From the NCBI GenBank assembly GCA_001769195.1, contig MEOK01000008.1, positions 1-64,000 of the forward strand: a stretch of 64,000 nucleotides of DNA, read 5' to 3'. This stretch comes from Bacteroidetes bacterium GWF2_40_14. GTDB lineage: Bacteria; Bacteroidota; Bacteroidia; Bacteroidales; UBA932. The stretch's first letter is position 1, and the number at the start of each line of letters is the position of its first letter. This document shows positions 29,158 to 48,626 of this stretch, in pieces. Both the position numbers and the translations under genes were made by a program. The notes beneath the pieces are model-generated. The model made no database searches. It was not told where the DNA came from and worked only from the letters and a program-made list of their open reading frames with translations.

Positions 29158-29856
29158 ATGTGTTTTTCAGCCGAAGCCAGTTTTGTGGGAGGAGTAGTCA
29201 TTTCTGCAATAGGCATTTTAGCAGTCAAGAAGGTAAAAAATCCTTCGCAGAAAATATTCGCACTTATTCCTTTGGTGTTTGCATTTCAGCAATTTGCAGA
29301 AGGTTTTGTGTGGCTCTCCCTGAGGTATCAAGAGTATGAGACTGTTCAAAAAATAAGCACTTACATTTTTTTGACAATGGCAGAGGTTCTATGGCCTACC
29401 ATGATTCCCCTCTCTGTTCTTCTTATGGAGAAGAATGACGGAAGGAGAAAATTACTCAGAATCCTGCTGGTTCTTGGAATTTTATTGTCGGCCTATTATG
29501 CCTTTTGTTTATTGACATTCGATGTGAATCCGCAAATTTCGGGGTTTCATATCCAATATCTCAACGACTTCCCGGAACAGCTGAGAATGCCTGCATTCTA
29601 TCTGTATGTTATTGTTTCTATCTCTCCATTGTTTGTCTCCAGCATAAAAAGGACGCATATGCTTGGCATATTGATGTTCCTTTCGTGTCTGGTAACCGTA
29701 ATTTTTTTTACTCAATATCTTACCTCTGTGTGGTGTTTCTTTGCCGCTCTTATTAGTGGCGTTATCTTATGGATACTAAGTGATATAAACAAGAAATTCA
29801 GCATACATGCAATCAGAAAAACCGGAAAAACCAGAAAAACCGGACAAGCTGGCTAA
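29158..29856 (+). CDS. Integral membrane protein (DUF6629-like)
   Basis: 232 residues with about seven hydrophobic helices. The opening MCFSAEASFVGGVVISAIG, with Cys2 and a Ser/Ala-rich first helix, resembles the DUF6629 family; function unknown. An unusually clear Shine-Dalgarno (AAAGGAG, eight bases before the ATG) decides the start. The C terminus turns into a basic tail (RKTGKTRKTG) encoded by a short DNA repeat that also encodes the N terminus of the next gene in another frame; the overlap is 50 bases. Confidence 0.72.
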   Translation: MCFSAEASFVGGVVISAIGILAVKKVKNPSQKIFALIPLVFAFQQFAEGFVWLSLRYQEYETVQKISTYIFLTMAEVLWPTMIPLSVLLMEKNDGRRKLLRILLVLGILLSAYYAFCLLTFDVNPQISGFHIQYLNDFPEQLRMPAFYLYVIVSISPLFVSSIKRTHMLGILMFLSCLVTVIFFTQYLTSVWCFFAALISGVILWILSDINKKFSIHAIRKTGKTRKTGQAG

Positions 29857-30991
29857 TCCTGACAGATTCAGCCGTCAGGCAAGCTATCAGGAGGGGCTTC
29901 CAGAGAATTCCTTGGTGGGCACTGCCTCTTCCGGCAGCATTTCCCTCCGCCGGGTGCATTGCCTGCTTTGTCCTCACAATTGCATTATCAATGTGGGAAG
30001 GTCCGGAGTATGCAAAACAAGGGTCAACAAAAACGGAGTGTTATATACAATGGCATACGGTAATCCATGTTCAATTTCTGTGGACCCGATGGAAAAGAAA
30101 CCTCTTTTTCACTTCTTTCCGGGCTCAGGGATATTTTCTCTTTCTACTGCTGGATGCAATTTCCGTTGTCTTAATTGCCAGAACTGGTCCATCTCGCAGA
30201 AGGCACCTTCGGATTTACAGTATTACGACATGAAGCCTCAGGAGGTTGTGGCTGAAGCATTGCGCCATAAATCATCCAACAAAGAACTACATATTACCAG
30301 TAGTATTGCATTCACCTATACAGAGCCAACCGTTTTCTTCGAGTATATGTATGATATTGCCAGGGAGGCACATAAGCAAGGAGTAAAAACGGTAATGATA
30401 TCAAATGGATACATTAACCGTCAACCTTTGCTCGACCTTGTTCCGTATCTGGATGCCGCCAACATAGACCTCAAATGTTTTGACGATGCTATATACCATA
30501 AGCTCACCGGTGGTTCTCTGCAACCGGTACTCGATACACTCAAAACGCTCAAAGAGAGAGGTGTCTGGCTGGAAATCACTAACCTGATTATCCCTTCACT
30601 CACCGATGACCCAGACATGATTAAGGCTATGTGTGAATGGCTTGCCGAGAATGGATTTGCAGATACCCCACTCCATTTCAGCCGGTTCTTTCCAACCTTC
30701 AAGCTGACGCAACTACTGCCAACATCTCCGGAGTGTCTGATAAACTCCAAAGAGATTGCAGAACGAGCAGGACTCAAATATGTCTACATTGGAAATCTTC
30801 CATATCTTCGCGGAGAGAATACTCATTGTCCAAAGTGTGGAAAAACATTAGTTGAGCGAGAGGGATATCGGGTAACAGAGATGAAAATAGAGACACACAT
30901 AGATAAGAACTTCGATGCAGATGCCGCAATAAATGACAGTACAGGATTATGCGGGTTTTGCGGTGAAAAAATCGCAGGAGTCTGGGGTTGA
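29807..30991 (+). CDS. amrS: AmmeMemoRadiSam system radical SAM enzyme
   Basis: 394 residues. The core fits the AmrS/PflA-like family: an N-terminal cysteine cluster (CLLCPHNCIINVGRSGVC), GNPCSISVDPMEKKPLFHF, the radical-SAM motif CNFRCLNC, YTEPTVFFEYM, and a C-terminal zinc-ribbon-like pair CPKCGKT and CGFCGEK. It is always found with AMMECR1 and MEMO1 homologues, as here. The first 20 or so residues (EKPEKPEKPDK) come from a DNA repeat overlapping the previous gene and are not conserved in the family, so the true start may be further in. The reaction is unknown. Confidence 0.92.
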   Translation: MQSEKPEKPEKPDKLANPDRFSRQASYQEGLPENSLVGTASSGSISLRRVHCLLCPHNCIINVGRSGVCKTRVNKNGVLYTMAYGNPCSISVDPMEKKPLFHFFPGSGIFSLSTAGCNFRCLNCQNWSISQKAPSDLQYYDMKPQEVVAEALRHKSSNKELHITSSIAFTYTEPTVFFEYMYDIAREAHKQGVKTVMISNGYINRQPLLDLVPYLDAANIDLKCFDDAIYHKLTGGSLQPVLDTLKTLKERGVWLEITNLIIPSLTDDPDMIKAMCEWLAENGFADTPLHFSRFFPTFKLTQLLPTSPECLINSKEIAERAGLKYVYIGNLPYLRGENTHCPKCGKTLVEREGYRVTEMKIETHIDKNFDADAAINDSTGLCGFCGEKIAGVWG

Positions 30992-31582
30992 TCAATCACC
31001 AGATGTGAGTATGGTAGCGGTAAAGATGTAGACATCGGCGCTCTTCCAGCCGGTCCAGCCTAAGCCGGCCTTGTCGCGGGAGCAATGTCCAAGAAAATCT
31101 TCACGGCTCCAGCCGGTTTCGGTAGCAACCTGAGGGAGAAACACTCCGGAGTCGACACCCTTCTGTATAAAGATGCCATGCTTTCCTAGCTCAATCTCTG
31201 TAATATCGTCTATCCTGGTCATGGGAGAGAGCACCGATATCTCGATATCTATTTTTGACAGTTCGTCCGGCCCTATAGGGGTAAACCGATAATCGTAAAG
31301 CGATGCAGATATTGCCATCTCCTGAATCATTTTGTAAAGGGGCAGGTCGCCGGTCATACGGCCGAGGCAACCGCGTAGCTTTCCTTTGTTGTGCAGCGTT
31401 ACAAATGCTCCGCAGGTTGTTTTGAGAATATCAGAGTATTCATCGGGGGTCACCTTGAATTTTTTCCCTCCAAGAACTGCCGAATGTATAGATTCACGAG
31501 CTATGTCCAACAGGGTTTGTTTATCTGTTTCTGAAAGTGGATTTGATGAGTCTGTGGATGGAGTGGTTATATCAGATATCAT
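30992..31582 (-). CDS. amrA: AmmeMemoRadiSam system protein A (AMMECR1 domain)
   Basis: 196 residues. The AMMECR1 hallmark LRGCLGRMTGDLPL is present near residue 70, with the downstream FTPIGPDELSKIDIEISVLSPM and GVFLPQVATETGWSREDFLGHCSRKAG-like segment. Its stop abuts the stop of the radical-SAM gene, so the two are convergent. It pairs with the MEMO gene upstream on the same strand. Molecular function is not established; the group is thought to carry out a linked modification reaction. Confidence 0.92.
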   Translation of the reverse strand: MISDITTPSTDSSNPLSETDKQTLLDIARESIHSAVLGGKKFKVTPDEYSDILKTTCGAFVTLHNKGKLRGCLGRMTGDLPLYKMIQEMAISASLYDYRFTPIGPDELSKIDIEISVLSPMTRIDDITEIELGKHGIFIQKGVDSGVFLPQVATETGWSREDFLGHCSRDKAGLGWTGWKSADVYIFTATILTSGD

Positions 31583-31687
31583 GATTTTTATAGATTGTTA
31601 GGGGTAGTTTGTGTATTAGGGATCGTATGTATAGGGATAGTTTATGTAATAAGAGTATTGGTTCTGCATTTTATGATACGATGCTGC
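31583..31687. other. Intergenic gap between amrA and amrB
   Basis: A 105-base AT- and G-rich stretch on the plus strand with loosely repeated TATAGGGAT/TATTAGGGAT words. I see no convincing gene, hairpin terminator or promoter box. Its translation contains a peptide familiar from an adapter artefact, but the bases do not match the adapter. Confidence 0.4.
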
Positions 31688-32572
31688 TTAATGGGGCGGT
31701 TGTTTTCCACAAACAGCTATGCCCCAGTAGCCAACAACCCTGTTGGTTTCGCCATAGTATTCGACGTCACCGGAGTTTCTGTAGTCGACAGCAATATATT
31801 CCAGGGATTTTTCATTTGAGGTCATGTATAGAAGCGTCAATACAGATGTCCAACCACAGAGGCTTGTTACGAGGTGCGGAATCTTTTTTTCTGCTGTCTT
31901 TTTGATAGAGGCAAGCAGGACATCAGGATTATTTGCCAGGATAGCCTCCTTTGTAATGTCGTCTACCTTCTGGGCATCTGCATAGTTAGGGTAGTGCGAA
32001 AAGTCGGAGCTTATTATGAATAGATTTTCAGGAGTAAAATAAGGTTTAAGTGTCAAGGCAATCTCTTTGCAAATATCCTTGTCGGAGGTGCCGATAATTA
32101 TTGGGACAATGCTGTACTCACTTTTAAGAATATGGTTGAGAAAGGGGAGCTGCACCTCCAGACTGTGTTCTTTCTGATGAGGGCCGCGATCGGAGGTGAA
32201 CAATACCGGAAATCTTTCGACAAGCATCTTCCCGAAAGAGCGGTCTACCGGAACTGTTCCAAAAGGCATAATAAAATCACCGTCGCAGTATACCGCGGCC
32301 CCTTCGAACCACTCCTGGTGAGATGAAGCTATTACAAATATCCTCTTATAGGCGATGTCCGTATCAATCTGATTGAAGGCAGATGCTGCTACTTCGCCTG
32401 AATATATATACCCGGCGTGCGGGCAGATGATAGCTCTTACATTGCTGCAACGTTTGGGAATTGCAGAAGCAAATATGTTTTCGAGCTCCTTGTGCAGTTT
32501 TTGCTTGTCTGCAGGATAAAAACTTCCCGCTACAGCGGGTTGCCTGTCAATCTCTTCTGAAACTGTTTTCAT
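31688..32572 (-). CDS. amrB: AmmeMemoRadiSam system protein B (MEMO1 family)
   Basis: 294 residues. It starts with REP-like segment DRQPAVAGSFYPADKQKL and continues ICPHAGYIYSGEVAA, VPIIIGTSDKD and SSDFSHYPNY, all typical of the MEMO/LigB-like fold with a His-rich metal site. The ATG at 32572 has a strong GGAGG eight bases upstream. A 105-base gap separates it from AMMECR1; the two are probably one transcript. The divergent region upstream holds the asnA promoter and leader. Confidence 0.92.
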   Translation of the reverse strand: MKTVSEEIDRQPAVAGSFYPADKQKLHKELENIFASAIPKRCSNVRAIICPHAGYIYSGEVAASAFNQIDTDIAYKRIFVIASSHQEWFEGAAVYCDGDFIMPFGTVPVDRSFGKMLVERFPVLFTSDRGPHQKEHSLEVQLPFLNHILKSEYSIVPIIIGTSDKDICKEIALTLKPYFTPENLFIISSDFSHYPNYADAQKVDDITKEAILANNPDVLLASIKKTAEKKIPHLVTSLCGWTSVLTLLYMTSNEKSLEYIAVDYRNSGDVEYYGETNRVVGYWGIAVCGKQPPH

Positions 32573-32618: not shown

Positions 32619-32649
32619 TTTGGCAATTAAAAACAAATGTATACTTTTA
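32619..32649 (+). promoter_or_regulatory. asnA leader promoter
   Basis: TTTG at 32619-32622 and TACTTTTA at 32642-32649 (7 of 8 to TAnnTTTG) are separated by 19 bases, the standard Bacteroidetes spacing. Transcription would begin around 32656, about 20 bases before the leader-peptide ATG. Confidence 0.65.
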
Positions 32650-32675
32650 CGCACTGGAAACACTATAAAAAAAGA

Positions 32676-32765
32676 ATGACCTTTTTAAGGAATAATAATA
32701 ATCTCTTTAATAATTCGAATAATAATCATATTCGGACAGGGAGGTTATTGTTGTTAAACAAGTAA
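32676..32765 (+). CDS. Asparagine-rich leader peptide of asnA
   Basis: A 29-codon reading frame between the asnA promoter and its terminator, too short for usual gene calling. After MTFLR come four AAT codons, LF, two AAT, S, three AAT, then HIRTGRLLLL, N, K and the TAA at 32763-32765. Ten of 29 residues are asparagine, nine of them in a 12-codon block at 32691-32726. The block ends 12 bases before the first arm of the antiterminator (32739), where a stalled ribosome's front edge would lie. I infer a leader peptide whose translation measures charged tRNA-Asn. Confidence 0.8.
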   Translation: MTFLRNNNNLFNNSNNNHIRTGRLLLLNK

Positions 32766-32816
32766 ATTATTAACAATATATATGACAAGCCTCCCGCATC
32801 CCGGGGGGCTTTTTTT
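32739..32816 (+). terminator. Transcription attenuator (antiterminator/terminator switch) of asnA
   Basis: Terminator: a 10-bp stem with arms 32787-32796 (AAGCCTCCCG) and 32802-32811 (CGGGGGGCTT), loop CATCC, then a T run to 32816. Antiterminator: GGGAGGTT (32739-32746) can pair with AGCCTCCC (32788-32795), which is the 5' arm of the terminator, extended by ATTGTT (32747-32752) with AACAAT (32772-32777). The two structures exclude each other. The leader-peptide stop at 32763 lies in the antiterminator loop, so a ribosome reaching it blocks the antiterminator and allows termination. asnA begins 21 bases past the T run. Confidence 0.82.
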
Positions 32817-32836
32817 ATGTGCAAAACTCAATAGAA

Positions 32837-33841
32837 ATGAAACAGGAAATTCTAAAAACAGAAAAGGCAATCACTCTTGTCAAGAAGACATTCGAGGGAG
32901 AGTTGTCGCGTCAGCTTAAGCTGGTAAAAGTATCATCACCAATAGCCGTTCTTGACGGAACAGGTATTAATGACGACCTTAACGGTATTGAACGACCCGT
33001 CTCTTTTCCGGTTAAGGCTCTGGAAGATAAAAGAGCTGTTGTTGTGCACTCCCTTGCAAAGTGGAAGCGTCTTAGACTTAAACAGCTGGAGATGGAACCT
33101 AACAGTGGTATTCTTACCGACATGAGGGCTCTCAGACCTGACGAAGATTTTACTGCACTGCACTCTATTTATGTGGATCAGTGGGATTGGGAGCAGCGTA
33201 TCTGGCCCGGCGACAGAACACTTGACCGGTTAAAGGATACAGTAAGGAAAATCTACTCTGCACTTAGGGCAACGGAACTCGCAGTTTATGAGCAATACCC
33301 TCAAATTGAGCCGGTTTTGCCTGCAGACATCACCTTTATCCATTCGGAGGAGCTTCTTTGTTGCTATCCATGGCTTTCTCCAAAGGAGAGAGAGTATGCC
33401 GCGGCTAAGGAGTATGGTGCAATATTCATTATTGGAATAGGGGGATTACTGTCCAACGGGGAACGTCATGATGGCCGGGCACCGGACTATGACGACTGGA
33501 GCACACTCAACGAAGAGGGATATTCAGGAATCAACGGTGATATTATTGTCTGGAACCCTGTATTACAGTGTGCGTTTGAACTCTCCTCAATGGGGGTGAG
33601 GGTAGATAAAGTGGCACTTGTCCGCCAGCTGGAGGAGAGAGGTTGTTCAGACCGGTCGTTGCTTACATTTCACAGTATGCTGCTTGCAGGAGAACTTCCG
33701 GAGAGCATCGGTGGAGGAATAGGACAATCCAGGGTATGTATGTTCATGCTCAAGAAACAACACATTGGAGAGGTTCAGGTTAGCATCTGGCCGGAGGTAG
33801 AGATGAGAAAACTTGCCGCAGCGGGTGTAACTCTTCTGTAA
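32837..33841 (+). CDS. asnA: Aspartate-ammonia ligase (asparagine synthetase A)
   Basis: 334 residues from the ATG at 32837; a GTG six codons upstream lies right behind the terminator and is less likely. AsnA makes asparagine from aspartate, ammonia and ATP and has a class II aminoacyl-tRNA synthetase fold. Family stretches include KVSSPIAVLDGTGINDDLNG, VVHSLAKWKRLRLKQ, YVDQWDWEQ and GGGIGQSRVCMFMLKK. It is preceded by an asparagine-codon leader peptide and an attenuator, so its expression should rise when tRNA-Asn charging falls. Confidence 0.97.
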   Translation: MKQEILKTEKAITLVKKTFEGELSRQLKLVKVSSPIAVLDGTGINDDLNGIERPVSFPVKALEDKRAVVVHSLAKWKRLRLKQLEMEPNSGILTDMRALRPDEDFTALHSIYVDQWDWEQRIWPGDRTLDRLKDTVRKIYSALRATELAVYEQYPQIEPVLPADITFIHSEELLCCYPWLSPKEREYAAAKEYGAIFIIGIGGLLSNGERHDGRAPDYDDWSTLNEEGYSGINGDIIVWNPVLQCAFELSSMGVRVDKVALVRQLEERGCSDRSLLTFHSMLLAGELPESIGGGIGQSRVCMFMLKKQHIGEVQVSIWPEVEMRKLAAAGVTLL

Positions 33842-47598: not shown

Positions 47599-47694
47599 GT
47601 GTCTTTTTTAGCAAACACAAACGTACTCCATCATCATCACCTTCATTCCCATGGTAGGCGTTGTTTTATGTTTGCATATATCTCAAATGAATAA
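47599..47694 (+). CDS. Histidine leader peptide of the his operon
   Basis: A 31-codon frame starting at GTG 47599 and ending with TAA 47692-47694. It contains HHHHLHSH (codons at 47629-47652), six histidines in eight codons, directly ahead of the antiterminator arm. This is the classical signature of ribosome-mediated attenuation by charged tRNA-His, as in enterobacterial hisL, though the rest of the peptide is unrelated. The non-ATG start is the weak point; no in-frame ATG lies upstream within the predicted transcript. Confidence 0.78.
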   Translation: MSFLANTNVLHHHHLHSHGRRCFMFAYISNE

Positions 47695-47755
47695 TCGTTA
47701 AATATATATAAATCACAAAAAAAGGGCTTACCAGACAGGTAGGCCCTTTTTTTTA
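47653..47755 (+). terminator. Transcription attenuator of the his operon
   Basis: Terminator: 9-bp stem, arms GGGCTTACC (47724-47732) and GGTAGGCCC (47738-47746), loop AGACA, flanked by an A run before and a T run to about 47754. Antiterminator: GGTAGGC at 47653-47659 repeats the 3' arm and can pair with GCTTACC at 47726-47732, which would break the terminator. This arm follows the last His codon (47650-47652) directly. hisG starts 20 bases after the T run. The leader stop lies 33 bases beyond the antiterminator arm, so timing must differ in detail from E. coli his. Confidence 0.8.
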
Positions 47756-47774
47756 TTCAAAAAAATCAGAAAAA

Positions 47775-48626
47775 ATGATCAGATTGGCAATTCAGGCAAA
47801 AGGCAGGTTAAACGAAGAGAGCCTGGATCTTCTTAAAGAGAGCGGGCTCGTAGTAGAGCCAAGCAAGAAAAAACTCCTTACAAAATGCGGGGACTTTCCT
47901 TTGGAGATACTTTTCCTGAGAGATGACGACATCCCTCAGGCTGTATCGATGGGCGTGGCAGACATAGGAATTGTGGGTCTGAACGAGGTAGAGGAGCGTT
48001 CATTTATAGTTGACAAGGTCCACAACCTTGCTTTTGGAAAGTGCAGATTGTCGCTGGCAATTCCTAAAAGCGAGATCTATAATGGAATAGGATACTTTCA
48101 GGGTAAAAGGATTGCCACATCCTATCCTGTCCTTCTGGAGAGATATTTCAAAAAAGAGGGAATCACAGCTGAGATACACCAGATAGCCGGGTCTGTGGAA
48201 ATTGCACCTTCGGTGGGACTTGCAGATGCAATATTTGATATAGTAAGTTCAGGAGGGACACTCATCACCAACGGACTCAAGGAGGTTGTGTCGGTTATGG
48301 ATTCCCAGGCGGTGTTGATAGCAACCCCGAACATGGAGAGTGACAAAAGGGATATCCTTAAGCAGTTGATGATGCGGTTCGAGGCAGTGGAGAGAAGTAA
48401 GGGGATGAAGTATCTGCTTATGAATCTTCCGCTTGACAGACTGGACGATGCAACAGAGATGTTGCCCGGAATGAGGAGCCCGACAATTCTTCCACTGGCC
48501 CAGAAGGGGTGGTGCTCGGTTCACGTTGTGGTGGAGGAGAAGCAGCTGTGGGACAGGATAGAGGGGCTTAAATCAATTGGAGCAGAGGGAATACTTGTAT
48601 TGTCACTAGAAAAGATGATGCCATGA
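47775..48626 (+). CDS. hisG: ATP phosphoribosyltransferase (long form)
   Basis: 283 residues, the length of the long HisG form with a C-terminal regulatory domain, so no HisZ is needed. Landmarks: MIRLAIQAKGRLNEESLDLL, DIPQAVSMGVADIGIVG and the phosphoribosyl-binding region IFDIVSSGGTLITNGL, then the C-terminal domain with RSPTILPLAQKGWCSVHVVV. It catalyses the first step, joining ATP and PRPP, and is feedback-inhibited by histidine. First gene of an overlapping his operon; it overlaps hisD by four bases. Confidence 0.97.
   Translation: MIRLAIQAKGRLNEESLDLLKESGLVVEPSKKKLLTKCGDFPLEILFLRDDDIPQAVSMGVADIGIVGLNEVEERSFIVDKVHNLAFGKCRLSLAIPKSEIYNGIGYFQGKRIATSYPVLLERYFKKEGITAEIHQIAGSVEIAPSVGLADAIFDIVSSGGTLITNGLKEVVSVMDSQAVLIATPNMESDKRDILKQLMMRFEAVERSKGMKYLLMNLPLDRLDDATEMLPGMRSPTILPLAQKGWCSVHVVVEEKQLWDRIEGLKSIGAEGILVLSLEKMMP

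Follow-up and report, generated by a model that had tools for sequence, protein, structure and literature searches.

The question raised by this locus is whether a short reading frame crowded with asparagine codons, separated from asnA by what is, by sequence, an intrinsic terminator, could regulate asparagine synthesis in the window (by which we mean the whole stretch of 64,000 bases that was analysed). We propose, from the sequence, that asnA is controlled by transcription attenuation of the classical ribosome-mediated type, with charged tRNA-Asn as the signal, a reading to which we give a probability of roughly 0.9 and which builds on computed features of the leader, namely its anatomy, its mutually exclusive pairings, their conservation and covariation, and a match between leader codons and pathway that returns for His and Phe. 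The downstream gene was identified as asnA by TIGR00669 (408 bits versus a cut-off of 293) and PF03590, which also matches; the genome, 97.5% complete, contains AsnRS and no AsnB above the family cut-off (best score 47 bits versus 267). The features of the region are as follows:

31691-32572, strand opposite to asnA: Memo family gene (family match)
32619-32649, plus strand: promoter-like boxes, TTTG at -33 (32619-32622) and TACTTTTA at -7 (32642-32649), from the sequence
32676-32765, plus strand: leader peptide frame MTFLRNNNNLFNNSNNNHIRTGRLLLLNK, 29 codons including 10 Asn codons, from the sequence and kept in relatives
32691-32755, plus strand: 1:2 helix, the Asn-codon segment 32691-32708 paired to 32738-32755, with an inner hairpin, 32714-32721 with 32729-32736, in its loop (folding, covariation, partner swap)
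32739-32795, plus strand: 2:3 antiterminator, 32739-32746 with 32788-32795, 8 bp (folding; conservation of the 8-bp core)
within 32739-32795, plus strand: stem supporting the antiterminator, 32749-32757 with 32770-32778, 9 bp (folding, window sequence)
32787-32816, plus strand: 3:4 intrinsic terminator, stem 32787-32796 with 32802-32811, T-run 32810-32816 (folding, covariation)
32837-33841, plus strand: asnA, aspartate--ammonia ligase, 334 aa (TIGR00669, PF03590)

The sequence-only reading had claimed a promoter, an Asn-rich frame, an antiterminator with a supporting stem and a strong terminator sharing one arm with the antiterminator. Every one of these was recovered: the two putative promoter boxes are present 5' of the leader frame; the 29-codon frame with 10 Asn codons was confirmed base by base, nine of them falling within 12 codons (codons 6-17, 32691-32726); folding returned the 8-bp antiterminator and its supporting stem in the places listed above; and the antiterminator arm 32788-32795 lies inside the terminator stem arm 32787-32796. 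What that list lacked is the 1:2 helix. The TTTG and TACTTTTA boxes, from which transcription would presumably start, are 19 nt apart in the window, and the latter has one mismatch to TAnnTTTG, which we take to be the -7 consensus. Of 28 leader loci, 27 have a -7-like box with at most one mismatch 5' of the ATG of the frame, versus 51% of shuffled segments, and 7 have an exact one, versus 4%. The Memo gene runs in the opposite direction, and the terminator in front of asnA is therefore not the one that closes the Memo transcript. As a side observation, the segment adjoining asnA (29807-32572) holds AMMECR1-like and Memo-like genes that match proteins A and B of the AmmeMemoRadiSam system, together with a putative radical SAM protein gene, recognised by eye.

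The leader RNA offers three mutually exclusive pairings, 1:2, 2:3 and 3:4, with the Asn codons in region 1, where they themselves form the 5' arm of the protector helix that pairs with the antiterminator arm. The computed energies are -21.4 kcal/mol for 1:2 with the inner hairpin, -16.8 kcal/mol for 2:3 with the supporting stem and -17.4 kcal/mol for 3:4, and folding of the 161-nt stretch, which had been suggested as a check, gave a better result than 200 of 200 shuffles (z -4.86). The clustered Asn codons overlap region 1 and stop 5' of the start of region 2 (32738/32739). The footprint of a stalled ribosome reaches roughly 12-15 nt downstream. With a ribosome stalled on any of the clustered codons, either region 1 or the inner hairpin would be occupied and region 2 would stay largely free.

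We folded the RNA as a growing chain, in 3-nt steps with region 1 masked and at six lengths with region 1 free. With region 1 masked, the antiterminator was the best fold at 3' ends from 32796 to 32808, and the terminator took over at 32811. With region 1 free, the 1:2 helix was best at 32760, 32790, 32806, 32812 and 32816, accompanied at 32812 and 32816 by the full terminator, whereas at 32800 the antiterminator was the best fold instead (-24.4). Since at equilibrium the full-length RNA favours the terminator even when region 1 is masked (-24.5 versus -16.8 kcal/mol for the antiterminator), read-through must depend on kinetic, co-transcriptional folding, which limits the argument.

We envisage two outcomes, both conditional on the leader being translated. 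When asparagine is plentiful, the ribosome would clear the Asn codons and free region 1 (32691-32708), which would capture region 2 (32738-32755); terminator 3:4 would then form and transcription would end before asnA. When Asn-tRNA is short, the ribosome would stall on one of the nine clustered Asn codons and hide region 1, and the free region 2 would pair with region 3 as soon as this is transcribed, blocking the terminator and allowing asnA to be made. The direction of this response, as well as its size, is what we infer from the arrangement.

A reading frame of this kind might also be a by-product of A+T-rich sequence lying before an ordinary, fixed terminator, and the region is indeed A+T-rich, DNA that easily yields runs of AAT and AAC. 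We examined asnA loci sampled irrespective of the presence of a leader (n=138, of which 4 had too little upstream sequence, leaving 134 evaluable) from three sources: 80 named loci, the best-ranking ones of 590 that were confirmed; 60 relatives' genomes, one of them the window's own and 33 of them with asnA, from which 34 loci were used (4 of the 34 were added later, one of these through a covariance-model search); and 392 genomes of the phylum, 24 of them with asnA including the window's own, which gave 24 further loci. The detector called for a terminator together with a frame that starts at ATG, spans 8-60 codons and packs 4 or more Asn into 14, a threshold chosen after a first look at the leaders, and with near-identical loci kept in the counts (e.g., L071/L103, L010/L118 and L088/L089, with identical AsnA) it was positive at 31 of the 134 evaluable loci (25 single and 6 tandem, L086 being scored tandem by hand, as its second frame overruns its terminator; the named part is the best 80 of 590). 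The expectation that the Asn-rich frame is kept in relatives was thus borne out, versus none of 396 control fronts, each belonging to some other ORF of 150 aa or more at the same or at asnB loci (28 of these fronts have a terminator). Two of the positives are weak and doubtful: L113 has 4 Asn among 18 codons, and L127, from a distant genome, has a 48-codon frame and a long branch. In addition, 103/134 evaluable loci, including 4 in the window's genus, gave no detector signal. Dinucleotide shuffles gave 0 positives in 1020. Across the leaders, Asn is encoded by AAT 145 times and by AAC 36 times, mixed within most aligned Asn columns, and these columns are kept across genera despite the exchange. 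Together with the covariation of the helices, described below, the controls and the codon exchange already contradict the by-product explanation, to which we assign next to no probability.

The proposed attenuator was known to the sequence-only reading from one genome, in which it indeed stands, but it is found in three orders and is sometimes tandem. In the window's genus, 17 of the 21 evaluable asnA loci are positive, window included, and the four negatives (L100, L101, L103 and L104) have an AsnA of a different lineage. All five Hymenobacter/Solirubrum loci are positive. Among the named evaluable loci, drawn from the best 80 of 590, 7/78 are positive (Solirubrum, four Hymenobacter, the Bacteroidales MAG at L009 and Mesonia at L025), and these carriers span Cytophagales, Flavobacteriales and Bacteroidales. 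On an AsnA tree of 140 rows, made with a quick method and leaving many forks open, a single 38-row group (support 93) contains 28 of the 33 leader rows, along with 7 rows that have no leader and 3 that are not evaluable, and the leader state needs at least 6 changes. Leader rows outside the main group are L186 and L207, plus L109, L151 and L110, the last three forming a separate AsnA lineage within the same genus and family; given this scatter, either gain or transfer of the leader occurred more than once, or losses were frequent. Considered as a second target, asnB was set aside: among 30 fronts, taken from top-scoring asnB loci, none scored and only one had a terminator, and many of the sampled loci may be paralogs from sugar clusters.

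Two observations stand apart from these counts. One locus, L031, lies on a contig labelled Planctomycetaceae while its AsnA groups with Bacteroidales AsnA, pointing to a binning error or gene transfer. In genome G020, a strong leader match (107.7 bits) sits at one end of a contig (C149:8-156) and asnA (L095) begins another, the two perhaps being one locus split by assembly.

The pairings were examined in an alignment of 22 type I leaders (pattern NNxLLNNNxNNN...IRxGRLL), the shuffles and permutations used here ignoring relatedness, so that permutation counts are not probabilities. Both sides have changed in 15 of the 29 pairs of the 1:2, inner and 3:4 helices (41 such cells), a number reached in 0/500 shuffles and compared with 5 to 8 in slid versions, over which the tested structure is favoured because this alignment was also its source. 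In the antiterminator core, pairing reaches 94.3% versus 35-66% in slid versions, and only one of its 8 pairs changed on both sides (GC 12, AU 5, GU 4), no excess over the shuffle mean of 1.2; its covariation score was matched by 9/500 shuffles. The claim of compensating pairs in relatives consequently holds for the 1:2, inner and 3:4 helices, and for the antiterminator taken alone it is limited to one pair. Region 2 keeps both partners across the 22 leaders: at column 77 it has either U or C, to which region 1 responds with the matching A or G in 16/22 sequences, and region 3 offers a pairing base, nearly always G, in 21/22. All three helices became weaker when partners were swapped among 20 sequences (two near copies dropped): in 5000 permutations, swapped partners equalled the own ones 0 times for 1:2, once for 2:3 and 0 times for 3:4. 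The conserved Asn-rich frame and the pairs kept through compensating changes lend support to the earlier reading of ribosome-mediated attenuation.

The leader might instead be translated and yet lack specificity for charged tRNA-Asn, responding to anything that slows ribosomes or to the nascent peptide that it encodes. We noticed that many leaders also conserve IRxGRLL at their C-terminus, as a peptide effect would have it; these residues are largely encoded by the pairing arms, however, so that RNA pairing alone may account for their conservation. General slowing, for its part, does not agree with leader residues that track the pathway of the downstream gene: His before hisG, Phe/Tyr before pheA, Ile before an ilvN-like gene and Asn before asnA. 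We regard such a response as improbable.

These other leaders came to light partly in the window, where a frame rich in His codons precedes hisG, likely forming, to judge from its sequence, a His attenuator with its terminator (47599-47775):

47599-47694: His-rich frame MSFLANTNVLHHHHLHSHGRRCFMFAYISNE (HHHHLHSH), GTG start, followed by a terminator and then by hisG at 47775 (hisG over its cut-off)

Elsewhere in the genome, pheA (PF00800 over its cut-off, below the NCBIfam cut-offs) is preceded by a Phe/Tyr leader, MKIINTYFFRFCFCFPQERV, and an aminotransferase of unsure specificity (below its cut-offs) by MRLFNAFGFYYYFFYSKRGGSVIV. A covariance model (R2) built from asnA leaders only was run on 25 genomes of the genus and 395 of the class. 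Of its 18 best genus matches, 17 are at asnA, most of them members of the model, and one is at a contig end. The weaker matches that were inspected, a minority of all weak matches, included His-rich leaders before hisG, Phe-rich before pheA, Ile/Thr-rich before aspartokinase and Ile-rich before an acetolactate synthase small-subunit-like gene (below its cut-offs). At L173 (about 1500-1629) a Met/Cys-rich leader (MMMMCCMQNF) and a terminator precede phosphoadenylyl-sulfate reductase, and at L201 (487-622) a Cys-rich leader (MCSITCFCCN) and a terminator precede a serine acetyltransferase-like gene (below its cut-offs); many other inspected weak matches, still within that minority, had a terminator and no evident leader. 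In the window's own genome, 4 of the 8 matches have a leader that suits the gene, including the one before the unsure aminotransferase, and the other 4 have none. A model made from asnA leaders alone hence drew in leaders for other residues (His, Phe, Ile, Ile/Thr, Met/Cys and Cys) whose downstream genes match or probably match, which suggests, if true, that leader-peptide attenuation is widely used in Bacteroidota.

T-boxes precede asnA in some Firmicutes, and a T-box, another riboswitch or a protein-bound leader could in principle control asnA here too. The window gave 0 Rfam matches at gathering score over its 64,000 bases, with the known leader families (His, Leu, Phe, Thr, Trp and others) included, and hence none for the His leader of hisG either; the T-box covariance model had no match at that score. 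Moreover, the leader frame and its Asn codons are conserved and none of these mechanisms needs them, which makes control of this type most improbable.

Nine asnA loci carry two Asn leaders and two terminators in series (L082, L083, L086, L208, L009, L025, L167, L186 and L207), of which L167 and L186 came through the covariance model and stand outside the 31/134 counts, and L207 is counted there as single, its second terminator having escaped the detector. The distal leader is clearly type I in L082, L083, L086, L167 and L208, and only loosely so in L009, L025, L186 and L207. The proximal leader (type II) has a Pro-Pro that starts at most 4 codons after the Asn run in 8/9 loci, the exception being L025. 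For 8 type II leaders, with L083 dropped because it nearly duplicates L082, pairing between the sequence that follows the Asn run and the 5' terminator arm scored -13.15, versus -9.48 with swapped partners and -6.99 after shuffling; 0/5000 permutations, which again ignore relatedness and give no probability, were as strong. Several of these leaders have CC-rich Pro codons that can pair with an antiterminator arm rich in GG, and RNA pairing may therefore explain Pro-Pro, with the caveat that the post-Asn stretch folds weakly (-2.4 to -7.2 kcal/mol). Pro-Pro may thus reflect either RNA pairing or a slow step of the ribosome; in the latter case, it could act as an intrinsic pause site, holding the ribosome on the antiterminator arm while asparagine is plentiful.

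As a speculative extension, which we consider rather doubtful, the Asn attenuators of Bacteroidota may constitute a family of two-stage switches, with a distal type I stage (the pattern given above) and a proximal type II stage (Asn run, Pro-Pro), whose stages would multiply repression and sharpen the response. This idea is weakened by the proximal frames of L086 and L207, which, unlike a classical leader, run past or into their own terminator, and by the four distal leaders that are only loosely type I. The window's asnA has a stage I leader only. Tandem Phe-rich leaders with two terminators were found through the model before pheA-like genes (L168, L177 and L200), and tandem Ile-rich leaders with two terminators before an acetolactate synthase small-subunit-like (ilvN-like) gene (L169). 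A tandem arrangement as the rule for pheA was rejected, an even sample giving 9/27 single and 0 tandem. The serial asnA loci offer a ready-made system for asking why two attenuators serve one amino acid.

Among the papers listed by searches of an open library, none showed an Asn leader for asnA or its tandem form; the 2010 work of Lopatovskaya et al., outside that set and reportedly a comparative survey of attenuation in bacteria, could contain such a case. In Flavobacterium psychrophilum, leader-peptide attenuation was proposed 5' of amino-acid operons, and structured 5' elements at pheA and hisG are conserved and without Rfam matches, according to the available part of the source (PMC9723704). 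An article of 2010, whose authors knew of demonstrated systems of this kind only from Proteobacteria and Actinobacteria, adds a His leader in bacilli, its main text, in the part available, being without the words 'asnA', 'asparagine' and 'Bacteroid' (PMC2965389). For Bacteroides thetaiotaomicron, leader-like short frames are mentioned and asparagine is not, in the available part of that paper (PMC7366714), and in the available text of a paper on the his genes of the phylum the word 'leader' does not occur (PMC8305728). The suggestion of a new regulatory element in Bacteroidota therefore does not hold for the mechanism, as attenuation was already proposed in the phylum (PMC9723704, as available), but the Asn specificity and the tandem design are possibly new. 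If the reading is true, asparagine joins the amino acids read by leader-peptide attenuation.

Asparagine apart, this mode of control is familiar. Ribosome-mediated attenuators are known for the his, trp, thr, ilv, leu and phe operons, with leader peptides in Proteobacteria, and the asnA T-box of Firmicutes reads tRNA-Asn charging directly, without translation. Like the classical attenuators, the element described here has a short frame of cognate codons, 1:2/2:3/3:4 alternatives and a terminator before a biosynthetic gene; unlike them, it combines Asn with asnA, and its Asn codons are themselves the 5' arm of the protector helix. With the Firmicutes T-box it would share the reading of tRNA-Asn charging 5' of asnA, but the design proposed here uses a translated leader. 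The F. psychrophilum case belongs to the same phylum and to the same proposed mechanism, its main text having no word that starts with 'asn' or 'asparagine' (PMC9723704). Finally, the tandem attenuators of Salmonella mgtCBR, as far as the available part of the source describes them, likewise place two short frames in one transcription-controlling leader region (PMC3641672), but there the target is not amino-acid biosynthesis, whereas here two serial Asn leaders precede asnA.
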